Below, piece after piece: positions 34,911-43,539 of a stretch of DNA of 64,000 nt. Made by a program: the position numbers and the translations under genes. Origin of the DNA: Desulfuromonadales bacterium. Its GTDB lineage: Bacteria > Desulfobacterota > Desulfuromonadia > Desulfuromonadales > Syntrophotaleaceae. Position 1 is the stretch's first letter. Each line of letters begins with the position of its first letter. Location of the stretch: contig JABXKU010000005.1 in NCBI GenBank assembly GCA_013619105.1, forward strand, positions 1 through 64,000. The letters are read 5' to 3'. The notes under the pieces are model-generated. The model saw only the letters and a list, made by a program, of their open reading frames with translations, had not been told where the DNA came from and ran no database searches.

Positions 34911-34942
34911 AAAAAAAGCCAGCTCGAAAGCTGGCTTTTCTT
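34911..34942 (-). terminator. Terminator downstream of tRNA-Cys
   Basis: AAAGCCAGCT and AGCTGGCTTT pair around a four-base loop, with a poly-A tract to the left (T's in the tRNA direction) and TTTTCTTTTA to the right. Confidence 0.9.
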
Positions 34943-34947
34943 TTATT

Positions 34948-35021
<74 letters not shown>

Positions 35022-35122: not shown

Positions 35123-37177
35123 TTAGGATCCGGGATGAACACTCTCTAGCAGTTGCGGATATTGATGCTGCTGGTAAGGTACCTCATAATAAAGATTGCG
35201 CAATACCTTATGCATCGGGCTGCTCAAAGAAGCGTAAAGCTCGTTTTTGAGTCGGCCATAGCGATAACCCGAAACTTCGCTCAGAATTCCCTGAATTTTG
35301 GCGAATTGAGCGGCCGGTATGTCCTCCCCCATCTGTGGGTCAAGGACGATAACCCCTTCGCTGAAGTCGGCTTGGCCAAGGGCCAGCATCATCCGTTCAA
35401 GGAATTCTGCGCTGGTTTGGTTTTCTATCACCTGCAATACACGGTTCATAGCCAGAGCCTTGCGGTACATGCCCTCTTCCGTCCCACCGGCCTCCTGAAT
35501 AAAATTGACCAAGGAGTAGGCATTGGCCATAACCTGTGGGATGTCTTTATACATATGCCCAACGATAGTCGGGTAATTGCCTGAATTGCCCCCTGAACCG
35601 TTATGCTCGACAGCCAAATCCTTGAGCTGCCGCCCAATCTTGCTGGTGTAGTGGAAATAATCTTCGACCCGGCCATCCTGATTGGCCTGATAGGCCAGCT
35701 GCAGGATGCCGACGATATCAATGGGAAAGATTTCCACCGCCTGCAGTTGATAAGTAAAAAAGAGCTCGCTGGCCTGAGCACCTGTCGAATAGTCACCTAA
35801 TTTGCGATAGAGATCGGCCAATTCACCCGCTGCAAAAGCCGCTAAAAAATAGGCATTGTCCGGCACGATATCGATGTCGCTTTGGGCATGTTGTTCAAAC
35901 AGGGCAAGATATTTCAGAAGCGGACTTTCAGCGGGAAAGATCTGCCCATGCAGAACCGCCTGACGGGTCCCCTCGTAATAGCCGGACAGCATAATACTCA
36001 ACTTGGCCGTAGAATCCCAAAGTTTGTGCATGGCGGCCAGATAGTTTTTATACTCATAGAAACCAGCCGAGGTATATTTCCCACCGCGACCCCGCGCATA
36101 GGCCAATTGGTTATAGAGGTCAACAGCCTGGTCCAGTTGACGATCGGCCGTTGAGGGCAGTTCTTTAAAGAAAGGCTCGTTGGTTAATGGATCGTTGGCA
36201 TCACTGAGGCGCCTCGTAACATAGGTGGTAAAACCCATGTGCTGGCTGAGCACGGCGGCCTGCCCCTTACGGCTATCCGCCCATTTCCAGGCTAGGCGAT
36301 AAAAGGCTTCGGCCCGCTGGTATTTGGCGACCAGCTGATCTGGATTCTCTTCGCCCTCAAAAGCATTGCGGCTGGCGATGGCCTCTAGAAAGGCTACAGC
36401 GAAGTTGAGGTTGTAATTATCGGAATTGAGACCCCGCATCCGTTCCACCGTTGCTTCGACCACGGTCCCATAACCGTTCTCGACGGTCAGCTTGTCATTC
36501 ATCGACAATACGATCACCCCGAGGGAAGACAACCCGGGAATCTGCTCTTCGACAATGGCTCGACGAATAATCAGATGTGCCATGTTTTCATATAAGTAAG
36601 GAAGGCTTTTGACGAAACCGGCTTTACCCATCTCACGCTGGATACGCAGGTTGTCGACCTCCAGCCTAAGCACAACATTTTGCCACAGGTCATACACGGC
36701 GTTACAAAAGCCCTGGTCGTTCTGGGCATGCATTTGCTGGTAAGCAAAATACAAATGCAGCCAGAAGGCCACATCGGGCTGCTGCGCTTTGCCCGACAAG
36801 GTTTCCATCACAGATTGAGCATTCTCTAACTGCAACTCTTCGCCACTGGTGAGATAGAGACAGAACTCAGCCAATGAAAGATGATAATATTTCTTCCATT
36901 GCTTTCCTTCTGCGGTTAATTGCCCATCGATACGATCCTCTGCACCCGTCTTGATCTGCAGATCCTGTCGTAACTGGTCTCGGTACCCTTCCAGCGTCTG
37001 ACCGTACTCTGCTCCCTTTTCAGCAAGTAACTGCTGCAGGTCCTCTTGCGGATACCAACTGAAGCGATAGGTAACATCGAGCAGGTTATCCCATTGCCCC
37101 CCTGCTGTTTGGGACATGCCCAGCGTGGGAACCAGACAAACAAACAGTACAATCAAAATGACTCTGAACAATTTCAT
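35123..37177 (-). CDS. Large periplasmic helical (TPR-like) protein of an Exb/Tol-like operon
   Basis: From the ATG at 37177 (GAGGAAG upstream) the protein has 684 residues with a clear signal peptide (MKLFRVILIVLFVCLVPTLG, cleavage near MSQ). The rest is almost wholly alpha-helical with TPR-like elements such as YQRAEAFYRLAWKWADSR and AAFAAGELADLYRKLGDYST. No catalytic motif or membrane helix is seen after the signal. It is the last gene of the five-gene cluster, 11 bp after the TonB-like gene. I infer a periplasmic adaptor or scaffold driven by or docking to the motor. Related organisms have large TPR proteins beside ExbB/ExbD pairs, but I cannot name a characterised homologue. Confidence 0.7.
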   Translation of the reverse strand: MKLFRVILIVLFVCLVPTLGMSQTAGGQWDNLLDVTYRFSWYPQEDLQQLLAEKGAEYGQTLEGYRDQLRQDLQIKTGAEDRIDGQLTAEGKQWKKYYHLSLAEFCLYLTSGEELQLENAQSVMETLSGKAQQPDVAFWLHLYFAYQQMHAQNDQGFCNAVYDLWQNVVLRLEVDNLRIQREMGKAGFVKSLPYLYENMAHLIIRRAIVEEQIPGLSSLGVIVLSMNDKLTVENGYGTVVEATVERMRGLNSDNYNLNFAVAFLEAIASRNAFEGEENPDQLVAKYQRAEAFYRLAWKWADSRKGQAAVLSQHMGFTTYVTRRLSDANDPLTNEPFFKELPSTADRQLDQAVDLYNQLAYARGRGGKYTSAGFYEYKNYLAAMHKLWDSTAKLSIMLSGYYEGTRQAVLHGQIFPAESPLLKYLALFEQHAQSDIDIVPDNAYFLAAFAAGELADLYRKLGDYSTGAQASELFFTYQLQAVEIFPIDIVGILQLAYQANQDGRVEDYFHYTSKIGRQLKDLAVEHNGSGGNSGNYPTIVGHMYKDIPQVMANAYSLVNFIQEAGGTEEGMYRKALAMNRVLQVIENQTSAEFLERMMLALGQADFSEGVIVLDPQMGEDIPAAQFAKIQGILSEVSGYRYGRLKNELYASLSSPMHKVLRNLYYEVPYQQHQYPQLLESVHPGS

Positions 37178-37188
37178 AGGCTTCCTCA

Positions 37189-38622
37189 CTATTCGGAATG
37201 GTTGATACATTCTATAGCTGAAAGTAACGCGGCACATCGGTCAGCAAAGTTTTGTGGATTGTAGATCCGCATCCACACGGTTTGTCCGGTTTCCACATTT
37301 TTAATATCAAACTTCATCTGCCCACAGGGATACACAATGTTGGAGTCTAGGCGAATAGCCAGTTCGGTACGCAAACGGTCCTCTTCGCTCTGGTCGACAC
37401 AGGCGGCCAGCTGATTAAGGCTGACAAACAGATTTGGATCACCGGAAGCTTCACCATCTCCGACAAAGTTTACAGCACTACTGGGAGGACCACCGCCACC
37501 GGTTGTCTCCAGAGAGCTGGATACGGCGGGCACACCCTGTCCAGAAGCAGTGGGCAATTGAACCGAAACCGCTGCTGAAGGTCCGGAAAAGCCGCCAATT
37601 TCACCACTGACCGAAGGGGCAGCAGGCTGGGTACCGGAGGTTGCATAGCTTCCGCCTACCTGACCTACCGCAGCAATCTTGACGGGGCTCTGTCCCGGTT
37701 CAGGAGCAAAGGAGCGACCAGCTCGAGCCACGGCGTGCCCTCCCTGACTGCGCGGTATGGAAAAATCACTACGGGACCGGCTGGTGCTCGGTAAGTCGAC
37801 CGTTGTTCCCGAAGCAGTCGGGGCAAACTGTTTGCTTTGTACCAGAGCCGGCTGGCCGGAGGCACTCGGCTTTAAACTGTAATCAACGGCTGGGGTGGCC
37901 CTGGGCGTAACCACAAGACTTTCCTTTGAACGACTTCCTAGTACCGGCCGCACAGAGACCAAACGGGGCTGCGAAGTTGTGGTGACCGTGTATTGATTGG
38001 CCTGACGAGATGGTGCTGGGGTCGTCAGCACCGGAGCCTGCCGTACAGGAACCGCTAAGGTAACGGTTTTTCGCGGCATCAATATCGGCTTTTCAACAGG
38101 GCGCACCACCTTGGCTGGTGTTTTGCGGGGCCTAGGAAGCACCTTTGCAGGCGGCAAGGAAAGTATCTTCGGGGGCTGCTGCACCTTTTTAACAACAGGC
38201 TTCGGCGGCACAGGCTGCCTAACTTGAACCGGCAGGGGTTCAGGCTGGGTTTGAACCTTTATCGGTGTGGCCACTGGGGGAGGTTCGACCAGGGGTTCTT
38301 CCAACATCCTGAGGACAATCTCAACTGGCTCTGGAACAGGAGTTTCAACCAAAGGAGGTTCTGGAAGGATAACCAGACCAAAAATAAGCAGCATCAATAG
38401 TGCGGTCAGTACCACTAAAACCGCCTGCATAGCAGGAAAGTCTTCCCTCAGAATGGTGGCAAATATAACTGTGAACGGACGAAATATCCAATTGGTTCGC
38501 CGCTCGGGAAAGGCCACTGCCTTTGACGCACAACGCCGGTCGACATAGATGTCGCTGCAGGCACGGGGCATCGGCACCTGGCAAACTCCCCATCCGTAAA
38601 GGCTCTCCTTGCCAAATTCCAT
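37189..38622 (-). CDS. Proline-rich TonB/TolA-like single-pass membrane protein
   Basis: This 477-residue protein has a cytoplasmic N-terminus of about 70 residues with three cysteines (C14, C22 and C31), one membrane helix (AVLVVLTALLMLLIFGLVIL, about 67-86), and a long Pro/Lys/Val-rich stalk (88-215; PPKPVVKKVQQPPKIL). Next comes a Ser/Gly-rich linker (215-385) and a compact C-terminal part with four cysteines (LAACVDQ, YPCGQMKF, DRCAALL, IECINH). The topology is that of TonB or TolA, but the C-terminal part does not look like a TonB CTD. Its start is two bases beyond the ExbD-like stop, with GAGGAAGG inside the preceding gene. Likely role: transmitting motor force to a periplasmic or outer-membrane partner. 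Confidence 0.65.
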   Translation of the reverse strand: MEFGKESLYGWGVCQVPMPRACSDIYVDRRCASKAVAFPERRTNWIFRPFTVIFATILREDFPAMQAVLVVLTALLMLLIFGLVILPEPPLVETPVPEPVEIVLRMLEEPLVEPPPVATPIKVQTQPEPLPVQVRQPVPPKPVVKKVQQPPKILSLPPAKVLPRPRKTPAKVVRPVEKPILMPRKTVTLAVPVRQAPVLTTPAPSRQANQYTVTTTSQPRLVSVRPVLGSRSKESLVVTPRATPAVDYSLKPSASGQPALVQSKQFAPTASGTTVDLPSTSRSRSDFSIPRSQGGHAVARAGRSFAPEPGQSPVKIAAVGQVGGSYATSGTQPAAPSVSGEIGGFSGPSAAVSVQLPTASGQGVPAVSSSLETTGGGGPPSSAVNFVGDGEASGDPNLFVSLNQLAACVDQSEEDRLRTELAIRLDSNIVYPCGQMKFDIKNVETGQTVWMRIYNPQNFADRCAALLSAIECINHSE

Positions 38623-38624
38623 GG

Positions 38625-39095
38625 CTAAGGGCCTTCCTCGAGAATTTCCGGCTGCACCACCGCCTCGCCGTACTCTTTACCCCATACCTTGGCCATAGAA
38701 CCGGCAGCGTAGAGCAAGTCTTGGGTAAGCGAGGTCTTTTCAGGCAATAAAATAGGCCGGATATTTCGAGCTTTTAAATTTGCTAACTCACCCAAAAGTT
38801 GCTCGGCAGCCAGCAGCTTTACTTCCTCACCATCCACCTGACTCGCTAGGCCGAAACGAGCTATTTTATAGGGTACCGGATACTCTTTCGAAACGGGATG
38901 CACCTGAAGTTCCCAGACTTCCCGTAACTGACCCAGAGCCCCAAGTTGTTGACTTTCCGGAACCACAGGCACATCCATTTCAGAGAAACGAATAGTGACA
39001 CTGTCAGCCACCGGAATGGTACTCAGGCTTATCAACAGTAGAAAGGCTAAGTCGGTAAAAGAAAAGAGCCAAGTTTGACCGTTATTATTTTTCAT
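38625..39095 (-). CDS. ExbD/TolR-like biopolymer-transport protein (divergent)
   Basis: The 156-residue protein has a short cytoplasmic N-terminus, one membrane helix beginning SFTDLAFLLLISLSTIP with the ion-path aspartate (D15) in the position used by ExbD/TolR/MotB, and a periplasmic domain. The end (RPILLPEKTSLTQDLLYAAG, then KVWGKEYGEAVVQP) echoes the ExbD dimerisation domain. It lies 18 bp downstream of the ExbB-like gene. The family match is weaker than for the channel subunit; order and topology support it. Confidence 0.68.
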   Translation of the reverse strand: MKNNNGQTWLFSFTDLAFLLLISLSTIPVADSVTIRFSEMDVPVVPESQQLGALGQLREVWELQVHPVSKEYPVPYKIARFGLASQVDGEEVKLLAAEQLLGELANLKARNIRPILLPEKTSLTQDLLYAAGSMAKVWGKEYGEAVVQPEILEEGP

Positions 39096-39113
39096 CCTGC
39101 ACCTATACTCCGA

Positions 39114-39758
39114 TTAGTCCTGATCAAATTTGGCGACGGCCGCCAGCCCCTGATCGATGCGCTTGTGCAACAGACCATAAAAAACTTTTTTAAGGAACTC
39201 AAGGATAGTGAAGCAAACCAATCCTATAAAAGTCGTATACAGAGCTGTAGCAATACCTGCGATGGCCAAATCACTCTTTAGGGTGCCGCTATTTGACAGA
39301 AAGTGAACGACCATACCGATGATGGTCCCGATAAACCCCAACGGGGGCATCAGATTGGCCATCATGCCGATAGGTGAAAGGAATTTCTCCTCAAAATAAC
39401 GTTCACTGAACTGAAAAGCAGCATCTCGGATAAAGGCATCAGGCGGAATGACCTTTTCCGAAGCCGGGTTTTTATCGTTCTCATTCAAATAATGTTGTTT
39501 AGCTTTGTCAAAAAAGGACGCGGCGATGATCATCACCGGAGTGCGCAAATTAGCGGGCAAATTATGCAGCTGTTTGCGGTTCTTAATGACCTTAAAATCA
39601 AAAGAGGCTAGCGCACAGAAAGAAATGTAGCACTTGATGATCGCAAATCCGAATACGCAAAGCATGATGAAGTAGACGGTTACCTGCAACAGACCGGAAT
39701 AGGTGTTAATAAGATAGGTCAAGGTATTGATGATTGATTCGGATAGGGCATTAAACAT
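39114..39758 (-). CDS. MotA/TolQ/ExbB-family proton-channel protein
   Basis: The 214-residue protein has three membrane helices: LLQVTVYFIMLCVFGFAII (about 22-42), ANLMPPLGFIGTIIGMVVHF (about 132-152) and IAGIATALYTTFIGLVCFTI (about 165-185). Between the first two is a cytoplasmic loop of about 85 residues. The block PPLGFIGTIIGMV followed by GIATALYTTFIGL is the ExbB/TolQ signature. With the ExbD-like protein it should form an inner-membrane ion-driven stator. It is the second gene of the cluster, 46 bp after the lipoprotein. Confidence 0.85.
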   Translation of the reverse strand: MFNALSESIINTLTYLINTYSGLLQVTVYFIMLCVFGFAIIKCYISFCALASFDFKVIKNRKQLHNLPANLRTPVMIIAASFFDKAKQHYLNENDKNPASEKVIPPDAFIRDAAFQFSERYFEEKFLSPIGMMANLMPPLGFIGTIIGMVVHFLSNSGTLKSDLAIAGIATALYTTFIGLVCFTILEFLKKVFYGLLHKRIDQGLAAVAKFDQD

Positions 39759-39804
39759 GTCTTGTTAGTCCCCTTAACTGCTGCTGTTGAAATTCGAAAT
39801 GATA

Positions 39805-40344
39805 TTAATTGATTAGCTTTGAACGCAGATTTTGAGCAGCCTTGCCAAGCGTCGCAAATTCCATATCGCGGCTATCGATCATAGCTGTTTGGATAGAAAC
39901 ATCCTTGCGATAGCGTTTGTCGTAAATCTTTAGCAGCTTGCGTGCTTGACCGATACTTCCTGTTTCATACAAGGCATAGGCACTCAATAGATTCACCTTG
40001 GCCACCTCAAGACGGGTTTCCAGGTTCTGCAAAGCCTCGCCGTCGTTAAGGATAGGCATGACGTGGACTTCTACGTAACGAGCCACTTCGCAACGAAACC
40101 CTTCGCGCTGACAACCAGCGGTTTCTTCGTCTGGCTGACGGGGCGGGCGGTGACTTTGCAAGTCGACTACGGTAGTTCTAAAGTTGATCAAATTCTGTTT
40201 GACATCTTTCAGATACTGGGTCTTTTGTATGGTATTCATGTGACCCAACACCAGTTGTTCCGACCAATTGGCCTTGTTGCAACCGCTGCAACCGGACAAC
40301 AAAAGTACGCTAAGGCCCACTATCAGCAGAATGGTCTTCTTCAT
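39805..40344 (-). CDS. Lipoprotein, first gene of the Exb/Tol-like operon
   Basis: From the ATG at 40344 (AAGGAG eight bases upstream) the protein has 179 residues. Its lipoprotein signal (ILLIVGLSVLLLSGC) puts the lipidated cysteine near residue 19, followed by a second cysteine (SGCNKA). The mature part is helical, with a cysteine pair in AGCQREGFRCEVARY and a TPR-like helix pair at the end (LLSAYALYETGSIGQARKLL). No family is recognised. By position it would be an envelope-anchored partner of the motor complex. Confidence 0.7.
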   Translation of the reverse strand: MKKTILLIVGLSVLLLSGCSGCNKANWSEQLVLGHMNTIQKTQYLKDVKQNLINFRTTVVDLQSHRPPRQPDEETAGCQREGFRCEVARYVEVHVMPILNDGEALQNLETRLEVAKVNLLSAYALYETGSIGQARKLLKIYDKRYRKDVSIQTAMIDSRDMEFATLGKAAQNLRSKLIN

Positions 40345-40599
40345 CAATACGCTCCTTAATCGGCATTTGATAAAACATTTTTTTACATACCCGGCATCGT
40401 CAAACTACGATGTCTCATCCGGAACTAGTATCTAGAAACCTGGGTAAAGAATAAACCATTTAACAGCAATTTCCATGCCTCGACAGACAAAAACTTTCGA
40501 ATTTCAAATTTTTTCATTTCCCAGGATGCATGTGACCACAAGGCCATAAGATAAAAACTTGAACAGATTTCTTTTTTACGGAAATCCCAACATATGCGC

Positions 40600-42765
40600 C
40601 TAACGGCCCATTTCTGTAGTTTTTGTCAAACGATTGCCAAAGGACTCACGCCCCCTCAAGTCGCCTAGAATCTGCACCGCTTCACCAACAAACAGATCTT
40701 TTTCTATACGCGCCAACCAACCATCCCCTATTGGCTCCTCCTCCACCTGCTTCTCAGACTTAACCGCTGCATCCATCTGTTGAGCATTTATAAGCTCGCT
40801 GTGTTCTTGCCATAGATCGGCCAAATCCAGGGAGCGTGCCGTAATTCCACCTCGATCCTGACTTCGTTTACGTAGCTCTGTCAGGACCTTAAAGCGAGGA
40901 GAGCTGGCAAGTCTCTTTTGGCTGGCTGCTCGTAAAGCATCAACATCAAAAGAGGCTGCTTGCCAGGGCGTATAGGAAACCGGTGCAATGGTATCCCATG
41001 GCAGAGCATAATCGGTATACCGCTCTCCACTCTGGACAAAGGGCAGCGGATCGGGAAGCAAGATATCCGGTTCAACCCCCTGCACTTGTGTAGAACCACC
41101 ACTAACACGATAAAATTTTTGCAATGTTAATTTCATGGCACCCAGGGGACGATACTCATCCATGCTCTTCGGCGGTAAAGCGCGGTCAAGGTTAAGAACT
41201 GTCTGCACGGTTCCTTTGCCATGAGTGACATGGTCACCAACCACCAGGGCCCGACGATAGTCCTGTAGAGCGGCCGCAAGAATTTCAGAGGCGGAAGCAC
41301 TGAAGCGATTGACCAGAACAATCATTGGGCCATCGAAAGCGACCCCCGGATCCTTGTCCTTAAGTACCGCAATGCGCCCAGCACTGTCTCTGACCTGTAC
41401 CACAGGCCCCTGGTTGACGAAGAGCCCGGCAATCTGTACGGCATCGGTCAGGGCGCCACCTCCATTATTACGCAAATCGATGACCAGACCATCGATTTGG
41501 CTACCACTTAGCTTCTCCAGAGCCGCCCGAACGTCATCAGTGCAATTGCGCGGTGTACTGTCTTGGTCATGGTCGAAAAAATCTCGATAAAAGGTGGGAA
41601 TGCGGATATAACCGAAGTTTCCTCCACGCTCGGCAGGCCCCTTAAGCAGAGTCGAACGGACAAATGATTCCTGAATCTGTACGACATCTCGAACAATTGG
41701 AATAACCTGTTGAATACCAGCAGGCTTTCGCACAGTGAGACGCACTTCTGTACCTTTTTTACCCCGAATGAGACGGACGGCATCCCGCAACCTGGAATCT
41801 ACAATATCAATGGGCTCGGCAGTTCCCTGAGCGACCTTCAGGATAACATCCTCTGCCTGCAACTGCCCCTGGCGGAAGGCTGGGCTGCCCGGGATGATGC
41901 TTATAACCTTGATAAACCCATCATCCTGTTGCAGGGTGGCACCGATCCCTTCCAATGATCCTTTCATGCTGATTTCGAACTCTTCTTCCTCCGCCGGCGC
42001 AAGATAATTAGTATGCGGATCGAAGGCGCGACACACGGCGTCGAAATAGCGATCGACATACTCCCGTTGTGTAATCTGCCGCAATCGTAACAGCAACTGT
42101 TCCATCGATTTCAAAACCTTATCGCTGGCTGTAGCCATTAACTTGGTATCGATACGATACTCACTCGGCATCTCAGTCGCCTTTGATACTGCTTTATCCT
42201 GTTCCTCCAGCAACGTTAGATAACGGCTAAATACCTGATATTTTAACACTTTGCGCCAACGCTCACGCAATTCAGAGCGATTCTGACAATAACCCAGCTT
42301 TTCTGGATCAATCTGCAAGGTCTCGCGGGTGCGAAACTGAAATCCGTCGGCCATAATCTGACGAATGAGTATTTCAGCCTCGTCGATGCGTTTCCGATGC
42401 AAAACGGCACTGACCTCAGGCAACTCCAAGTAGCCACTAAGCACCTCATTATCGACCTTCTGTTCATAGGCCTGCAATCTCAACACATCTTCTTTAAGCA
42501 GAAACCGCTTCTGACTGTCAAGCTGTTGCAGGTAAAGCTTAAAAGCCGCCGCGGAGAACTGGTCGTCAAGGGCCTGATCGCGATAGTGATTCTGAGTCAA
42601 CTGTTGAGAAAGCAAATAAGCCAGCAAGCGCTGACGGTTGATCTCAAAGCTTTCGGCATCCCGAGAAACACCAGCCGAACTTGAACCCACCCCAAGCAGC
42701 ATTAGGCCGACCAGCAAAACGATCAATGAGCGAAGCACAAAGTTAGAGGAACGGAACATATTCAT
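40600..42765 (-). CDS. prc: Tail-specific (C-terminal processing) protease, S41 family
   Basis: From the ATG at 42765 this 721-residue periplasmic protease has a signal segment (LRSLIVLLVGLMLLGVGSSS), an N-terminal helical domain, a PDZ domain (ISMKGSLEGIGATLQQDDGF to about 335) and the S41 catalytic core. The serine sits in NRFSASASEILAAALQDY (about 475) and the lysine in GDHVTHGKGTVQ (about 498). Length matches E. coli Prc rather than short CtpA. Prc processes C-termini of envelope proteins and degrades peptidoglycan hydrolases. It follows no operon partner. Confidence 0.94.
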   Translation of the reverse strand: MNMFRSSNFVLRSLIVLLVGLMLLGVGSSSAGVSRDAESFEINRQRLLAYLLSQQLTQNHYRDQALDDQFSAAAFKLYLQQLDSQKRFLLKEDVLRLQAYEQKVDNEVLSGYLELPEVSAVLHRKRIDEAEILIRQIMADGFQFRTRETLQIDPEKLGYCQNRSELRERWRKVLKYQVFSRYLTLLEEQDKAVSKATEMPSEYRIDTKLMATASDKVLKSMEQLLLRLRQITQREYVDRYFDAVCRAFDPHTNYLAPAEEEEFEISMKGSLEGIGATLQQDDGFIKVISIIPGSPAFRQGQLQAEDVILKVAQGTAEPIDIVDSRLRDAVRLIRGKKGTEVRLTVRKPAGIQQVIPIVRDVVQIQESFVRSTLLKGPAERGGNFGYIRIPTFYRDFFDHDQDSTPRNCTDDVRAALEKLSGSQIDGLVIDLRNNGGGALTDAVQIAGLFVNQGPVVQVRDSAGRIAVLKDKDPGVAFDGPMIVLVNRFSASASEILAAALQDYRRALVVGDHVTHGKGTVQTVLNLDRALPPKSMDEYRPLGAMKLTLQKFYRVSGGSTQVQGVEPDILLPDPLPFVQSGERYTDYALPWDTIAPVSYTPWQAASFDVDALRAASQKRLASSPRFKVLTELRKRSQDRGGITARSLDLADLWQEHSELINAQQMDAAVKSEKQVEEEPIGDGWLARIEKDLFVGEAVQILGDLRGRESFGNRLTKTTEMGR

Positions 42766-42935
42766 AACGGAATCCTGATAGTTCAAAAGGAATGAGGGCC
42801 TGGAATAAAACCATTAAATGCGACCTGCACTATATAGTCCAATAAGTGGTTCAGGGAAATGCACAAAAGGACCAATGGCCTTGTTTAGCAACCGAATACT
42901 CCATACGGAGCCAAAAAGGGGAAAGTATTGACAAC

Positions 42936-42963: not shown

Positions 42964-43014
42964 TCATCCAAGCTTCCAGTCAATTTGGACCGACTTTCCA
43001 AGGAGATGACCACC

Positions 43015-43539
43015 ATGATCCGACGACTTACCCTAACCTGTTTAATCCTCTGCTTGAGCTTGGTCAGTGGTTGCCAGCAACAGAACGAGGCACCGCCGAC
43101 ACAACCATCTGACCAGAAAGCGGCAGCCCTACCGGACGCTGACGGACGGACTCTGATTGAGCTCATAACGGTAACCCAGGACTACCGGCAATGGCCTATG
43201 TTTCCAGGCAAAGAGGCTCTATACCAGGGGCAACACCCACACGGAGCTTACCTTACCACTTATGTGAGCCCTCCAGTGTCGGCAGCTCTGCAAAACAAAA
43301 GAGGAAAACTGCCGGACGGAGCCATCATCGTTAAAGAGAATTATTCACCAGAAAAAGAGCTGGCAGCAGTTACCGTGATGTATCGCCGCGCTGGCTATAA
43401 TCCGGATGAGGGTGACTGGTTTTGGCTTAAGTACTCACCGGACCAAACCATTTTGGCCGAAGGCAGGATCGATGGCTGCATCAACTGCCACCGGGCGGTT
43501 CAAAACAATGACTGGGTTTTCACCGGGCCAGTGAAATAA
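43015..43539 (+). CDS. Cytochrome P460-family lipoprotein
   Basis: The 174-residue protein starts at ATG 43015, because AAGGAG lies nine bases before it; upstream in-frame codons overlap that site. A lipoprotein signal (CLILCLSLVSGC) is followed by the P460 fold: YRQWPMFPGKE, QHPHGAYLTTYV, PDGAIIVKENY, VMYRRAGYNPDEGDWFW and the heme motif CINCH near residue 157. Cytochrome P460 proteins bind an unusual Lys-crosslinked heme and oxidise hydroxylamine in nitrifiers. In anaerobes the role is unclear and could be NO or hydroxylamine detoxification. Whether the cross-linking lysine is present cannot be decided without alignment. Confidence 0.88.
   Translation: MIRRLTLTCLILCLSLVSGCQQQNEAPPTQPSDQKAAALPDADGRTLIELITVTQDYRQWPMFPGKEALYQGQHPHGAYLTTYVSPPVSAALQNKRGKLPDGAIIVKENYSPEKELAAVTVMYRRAGYNPDEGDWFWLKYSPDQTILAEGRIDGCINCHRAVQNNDWVFTGPVK

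Follow-up and report, generated by a model that had tools for sequence, protein, structure and literature searches.

A five-gene operon of Desulfuromonadales for a probable trans-envelope machine of the Exb/Tol kind

Which machine is encoded by five consecutive minus-strand genes in the genome of a sediment-dwelling member of the Desulfuromonadales, and on which partners would it act? The genes lie at 35123-40347 of the window (the whole stretch of 64,000 nucleotides that was analysed), in a source genome of 3.3 Mb and 205 contigs. A previous sequence-only reading had described them as an Exb/Tol-like operon with gaps of 46, 18, 2 and 11 bp. The five open reading frames and the four gaps were reproduced at the same coordinates; the 11-bp gap assumes that gene 5 starts with the ATG at 37177, the longest gene 5 reading frame (from 37237) overlapping gene 4. 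Among the five proteins only the channel exceeded a Pfam cut-off (MotA_ExbB), and the other four gave no match above background in NCBIfam and PADLOC. A plasmid search gave no match. The answer favoured here, with a probability of about two in three, is a self-contained trans-envelope machine of the Exb/Tol kind that would be driven by the ion-motive force and would have output parts of its own.

The operon is flanked upstream by a gene for a tail-specific protease (Peptidase_S41/TSP_NTD; 40600..42786, minus strand), a neighbour conserved in the window's family only. Beside the protease, a cytochrome P460-type c-haem protein is encoded at 42985-43539 and is kept in several relatives. Directly downstream, a tRNA-Cys gene (gca; 34948..35021, minus strand) was found, which is a neighbour and not a part of the machine. 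It stands between the operon and a strong terminator-like hairpin (34914-34939, with T-runs on both sides), so that the tRNA, within 34914-35021, may share the end of the operon transcript.

The motor part was identified through gene 2 (39114..39758, minus strand; 214 aa), which encodes a MotA/TolQ/ExbB-type channel subunit with three transmembrane helices. An ExbB/TolQ-type three-helix channel had been predicted, and the MotA_ExbB model (PF01618) bore this out with 39 bits against a cut-off of 22.9 (E 8e-10); the gene was also recovered by the genome search, together with five further MotA_ExbB loci. The pore threonines, at the positions known for ExbB/TolQ, are kept both in transmembrane helix 2 (GFIGTIIG, Thr145 being nearly invariant) and in helix 3 (ATALxTTF or ALxSTF). 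In the Desulfuromonadales channels, the helix 3 glutamate of the TolQ/ExbB motif SEAL is replaced by threonine (ATAL). In a maximum-likelihood tree the ExbBs of the five-gene system formed one clade (support 97/94) apart from AglR, TolQ, ExbB and MotA, the reference rows having been assigned by domain and synteny and not from named sequences, the AglRs through synteny with an NF033768 gene, and some branches being long.

Gene 3 (38625..39095, minus strand; 156 aa) encodes a single-pass subunit of the ExbD/TolR/MotB type with the helix WLFSFTDLAFLLL. The helix motif WLFSFxDLxFLLL is conserved, and Asp15 is invariant in 22 homologues. Thus, the part of the former assignment that concerned a single helix keeping its aspartate stood, and an ExbD match by profile did not follow: Pfam ExbD (PF02472) gave no match with gene 3, MotB_plug reached only E 0.22, and a PDB profile search with the protein returned nothing significant. 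The genome holds four PF02472 ExbD loci, gene 3 not among them; the protein is too diverged for this model.

A Zorya-like defence motor was considered at this point, since the channel has a weak similarity to ZorA (E 0.012). This value is background and is expected for any MotA/ExbB relative; the remote MotA-type channel is the only likeness to ZorA/ZorB, and all other parts differ. The other four proteins match no defence model, no cytoplasmic effector is present, the partners are exported to the envelope, and the neighbourhood is of a housekeeping type that is stable in the window's family. Zorya was therefore rejected, and a defence function of this kind is regarded as extremely improbable.

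The protein that would connect the motor to its load is encoded by gene 4 (37189..38622, minus strand; 477 aa). It is laid out like TonB/TolA, with a cytoplasmic motif, one transmembrane helix (38365..38427, minus strand), a Pro/Ser-rich linker of about 300 residues, and a C-terminal domain with four cysteines. The cytoplasmic motif LYGWGVCQVPMPR (38563..38601, minus strand) precedes the membrane helix; its core, [YF]GxG, is present in 31 of 35 transducer homologues and in 4% of background 90-aa windows. The histidine of the SHLS motif in the transmembrane helix of TonB/TolA is the reported motor-docking element (PMC12204202). This histidine is absent from the helix of gene 4 and from all but about one of the homologues; the way in which the transducer is driven may therefore differ from that of TonB. 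One locus alone, L042, carries a TonB-type helix (SLVIHG), the few other histidines near predicted transmembrane helices lying outside that motif, and the L042 transducer has no [YF]GxG. This single case suggests that [YF]GxG may replace docking through the histidine.

The C-terminal domain (37192..37485, minus strand) is predicted to fold as beta-alpha-beta-beta-beta-alpha. Four cysteines are held in its last approximately 80 residues; across 36 homologues two of them are invariant and the remaining two nearly invariant or slightly shifted. Conserved cysteines in an exported domain would fit periplasmic disulfides. The transducers of all 36 homologues were without a match in Pfam or NCBIfam, and neither gene 4 nor the ExbD-like protein reached a curated TonB or ExbD model. 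The TonB model PF03544 found three genuine TonBs in the source genome and missed gene 4. When the head profile was aligned to that of TonB_C with hhalign, a probability of 0.1% was obtained; a control alignment reached 99.7%. As the control combined sequences of the AgmX/PglI and TonB types with frames unrelated to them, this value demonstrates no more than the ability of the method to recognise relatives of TonB_C. An AlphaFold2 model of the head was of moderate confidence (pLDDT 79 overall and about 86 in the core, pTM 0.67) and had no significant match in the PDB, the best Foldseek hit having E 0.45 and the best VIA hit Z 2.7, with TonB and TolA unlisted. Structural rows for roadblock, profilin and TBP had Z values under 3 and were taken as noise. 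A PDB profile search with the four-Cys head also gave nothing significant. The proposal that the arm ends in a cysteine-rich module and not in a TonB C-terminal domain accordingly holds at the level of sequence, where the head is not TonB_C, and is accompanied by a structural model of moderate confidence; the two domains may share an ancestry too old for sequence detection. In the single-contig genome G003 (L034:6580-8012), the transducer is spread over two frames, the four-Cys domain lying outside the frame of a 436-aa ORF, which is either a frameshift or a sequencing error.

Motor-linked transducers with a non-TonB head have been described in the vWA force transducers, which often have an adjoining TPR gene (PMC12204202). 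The present head differs in being a small four-Cys domain: a vWA fold would need more than its approximately 80 residues, and no VWA match was found by Pfam in 36 heads.

Two further genes of the operon are candidates for the load. The 684-residue secreted helical protein of the sequence-only reading, gene 5 (35123..37177, minus strand), has a signal peptide and an all-alpha AlphaFold2 model (pTM 0.84), and was further identified as a TPR-like alpha-solenoid. Its profile matched consensus TPR proteins with E 2.8e-8 at profile positions 484-541. TPR proteins were also its top structural matches, though weakly, and the eukaryotic ones among the TPR matches were read as indicating the fold class only. 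A Pfam Rv2949c-like match (E 0.019) lay below the cut-off and was taken as chance, like other sub-threshold matches. Variation in this gene was observed at several loci. At L082:7977-11761 and L083:7774-11578 there are two consecutive solenoid genes, the second being longer (861-996 aa according to the gene caller) and more diverged. In two sister species the gene is split near residue 530 (L040:9569-11592 in G010; contigs C55/C70 in G011).

Gene 1 (39805..40347 with the ATG at 40344, minus strand; about 180 aa) had been called a lipoprotein, and a lipobox LLSG-C with Ser at +2 was indeed found. The product is helical and weakly TPR-like (TPR_19, E 0.1), and an OmpA-type peptidoglycan-binding domain was not found in it by Pfam. 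A lipobox was present in 27 of 34 gene 1 homologues by a strict rule and in 31 of 34 by eye, with Asp at +2 in none of the lipobox matches listed. The +2 sorting rule for lipoproteins is established for E. coli; by this rule, gene 1 is expected to encode a lipoprotein of the outer-membrane type.

With an ExbB/TolQ ring, a TolR/ExbD-type axle, a single-pass transducer, an outer-membrane lipoprotein and a periplasmic TPR-like protein in one operon, the parts parallel TolQ-TolR-TolA together with its lipoprotein and TPR protein. They could thus constitute a second, diverged Tol-Pal-like system, in which the lipoprotein would stand for Pal or CpoB and the solenoid for TolB or CpoB, and whose output would be a lipoprotein moved to constriction sites or a tethered outer membrane. 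The S41 protease and the OmpA-like barrels near some of the operons (see below) suggest a wall or outer-membrane context that would suit this idea. It is nevertheless unlikely, although it is the strongest of the alternatives. A complete tolQRAB-pal-cpoB operon is already present in the genome on contig C124, apart from flagellar MotAB, other ExbBD pairs and TonB, so that both systems coexist in one genome. TolB and Pal are not encoded with the present motor at loci that have only five families in common; there is neither a TolB propeller nor the peptidoglycan-binding domain of Pal, the transducer has no TolA/TonB C-terminal domain by sequence, and the ExbB clade is separate from TolQ. A paralogue of Tol-Pal or Ton was rejected, no TolB, Pal, TonB_C or receptor being present.

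For the favoured machine with its own output parts, the conservation of the five genes as a unit is central. The solenoid was found in 18 of 98 relatives. The four-Cys domain, searched alone, occurred in 17 of the 98, all of them within the solenoid's 18; in the remaining genome, G040, gene 5 is present only as a fragment at a contig end. The ExbD type was detected in 14 of the 98, all inside the solenoid/four-Cys set and none elsewhere, and the absences relative to the four-Cys set (G001, G054 and G066) are genomes in which the operon runs off the contig. All five genes stand together on one strand in 29 of 39 scanned loci. Two orders occur, lipoprotein-ExbB-ExbD-transducer-solenoid and ExbD-transducer-solenoid-lipoprotein-ExbB, which are cyclic permutations of each other. 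Eight of the ten incomplete loci run off their contigs. The other two, from one distant family (L084:4278-6886 and L085:821-3417), have two ExbB-like genes, a canonical TolR/ExbD-type gene in the ExbD slot, and transducers without the [YF]GxG motif. As the HMMs were built from the scanned loci themselves, their E-values arise partly by construction and only co-location counts as independent evidence. The closest relatives have flanking genes in common; at L039, L043 and L045 the flanks differ and the five genes are still together. Clustering of the neighbouring genes likewise left only five families broadly common across lineages. Co-occurrence of the genes, on which the initial proposal depended, and synteny of the last gene with the ExbB/ExbD pair are therefore kept. 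The genes recur together far more than by chance, and their status as a conserved unit is strongly supported.

A scan of named genomes retrieved Desulfuromonadales and, in addition, three distant loci with 25-27% identity; one belongs to a Deltaproteobacteria MAG, one to an unclassified MAG and one to a Myxococcota MAG. Seven matches, one of them marginal, were obtained in 395 genomes of the window's phylum, and 15 in 284 genomes of the phylum of the Myxococcota MAG. Within Desulfuromonadia the system thus has a patchy distribution, and it is found again in the latter phylum. In each of G484, G485, G486 and G687 the whole system is present twice, as diverged copies. Relative to the sequence-only reading, the TPR-like nature of the solenoid, the cytoplasmic [YF]GxG before the membrane helix and the second phylum with its permuted gene order are new.

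The occurrence in the phylum of the Myxococcota MAG raises the possibility of a relative of the Agl/Glt core (AglR, AglQ/S, GltG, GltD, GltE and GltC), which serves gliding or spore-coat export in Myxococcus (PMC3169522); a relative would move envelope complexes along the cell. The types of parts agree, namely ExbB, ExbD, TPR proteins and a TonB-like protein, which in Agl/Glt also has a conserved cytoplasmic N-terminus (PMC3169522), as has gene 4. However, the end of the transducer is not AgmX/PglI (NF033768), this model giving no match on the five-gene-system transducers of 36 homologues. One ExbD is present as against two in Agl/Glt, no homology to the Glt-type TPR proteins was detectable, and the four-Cys domain and the solenoid were unmatched to Agl/Glt proteins (best E for the solenoid, 0.2). 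Furthermore, G023, G486 and G687, which carry the five-gene system, have the NF033768 domain at loci apart from it. At the loci of G023 and G687 AglR-like and TPR genes stand alongside, and the short G486 contig shows an AglR-like gene. Because these genomes thus have an Agl/Glt-type core at another place, and because the five-gene-system ExbBs form a clade that does not include the AglRs, membership in Agl/Glt was rejected, and a more distant kinship is judged quite improbable, more so than the Tol-Pal-like alternative.

Next to the operon, three lineages encode an OmpA/OprF-like barrel that carries TSP3 repeats or an AMIN domain. Its gene was found upstream of the lipoprotein gene in G006/G012 (L036:8698-9561 and L038:13055-14239), downstream of the solenoid gene in G066 (L044:11044-11955), and downstream and convergent in G160/G380 (L082:12614-13702 and L083:12351-13442). 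The barrel family is multi-copy; in G066 the only copy is the operon's neighbour. For one to a few copies in about 3.5 Mb, we estimate that a copy would lie within about 1 kb by chance in roughly 0.1% of genomes, and three separate cases are thus unlikely to have arisen in this way. The barrel is absent from the window's own neighbourhood and is not adjacent in most loci. It is regarded as a candidate for the final outer-membrane partner.

The same adjacency in three separated lineages, once with a genome's only copy, could be taken to indicate a Ton-like energiser of uptake or export whose target would not be a receptor; it would open an OmpA/OprF-like barrel or some other outer-membrane channel. 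The system resembles Ton in the motor type and in the transducer layout of a transmembrane helix, a Pro-rich span and a C-terminal head. It differs in the absence of TonB_C by sequence and of the SHLS histidine, and the contig of the window (G000:C196) encodes no receptor: the Plug domain of TonB-dependent receptors was not found there, Plug genes being on other contigs and pal on C124, which agrees with the former observation that no receptor or pal gene adjoins. Import is not a usual role of small OmpA-like barrels. Since no substrate genes adjoin and the barrel family is multi-copy and mostly non-adjacent, an energiser of this type is considered improbable, ranking between the Tol-Pal-like and the Agl/Glt-like alternatives.

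Returning to the self-contained machine, its most likely form is a PMF-driven 5:2 motor that would pull the transducer on the solenoid and the lipoprotein, perhaps together with the OmpA-like barrel. The motor's ring in the inner membrane would consist of the ExbB-like protein, and its axle, which bears the ion-binding aspartate, of the ExbD-like protein. Beside the ring, the Pro-rich transducer would be held by its single helix and probably also docked through the [YF]GxG segment. From there it would reach across the periplasm, where its putatively disulfide-stapled head may engage the TPR-like solenoid and reach the outer-membrane lipoprotein, either directly or through the solenoid. In this way an outer-membrane complex would receive the work of the motor, with the barrel as candidate final partner. 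Action of the motor on the solenoid and the lipoprotein would place its site of action at the outer membrane. The helical protein and the lipoprotein, which the sequence-only reading had named as possible partners, are the two genes that always accompany the motor.

No description of the operon was found in the open-access literature that was searched. Very likely, the operon represents a genuine undescribed system among the force-transducing machines of the Exb/Tol type. The chances appear about even that it constitutes a further class of motor-driven trans-envelope systems beside Ton, Tol, Agl/Glt and vWA, with a disulfide-stapled head, [YF]GxG docking in place of SHLS, and a solenoid and lipoprotein leading to an OmpA-like barrel, distributed patchily in Desulfuromonadia and in the phylum of the Myxococcota MAG. 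Few machines are known that bring the ion energy of the inner membrane to the outer one, and this short list would gain a branch through a conserved set of five genes whose transducer head had not been recognised and which includes two dedicated partners. The module offers a compact list of parts for the question of how widely the 5:2 motor has been reused, and it bears on whether transducers may dock to the ring when the classical histidine helix is missing.
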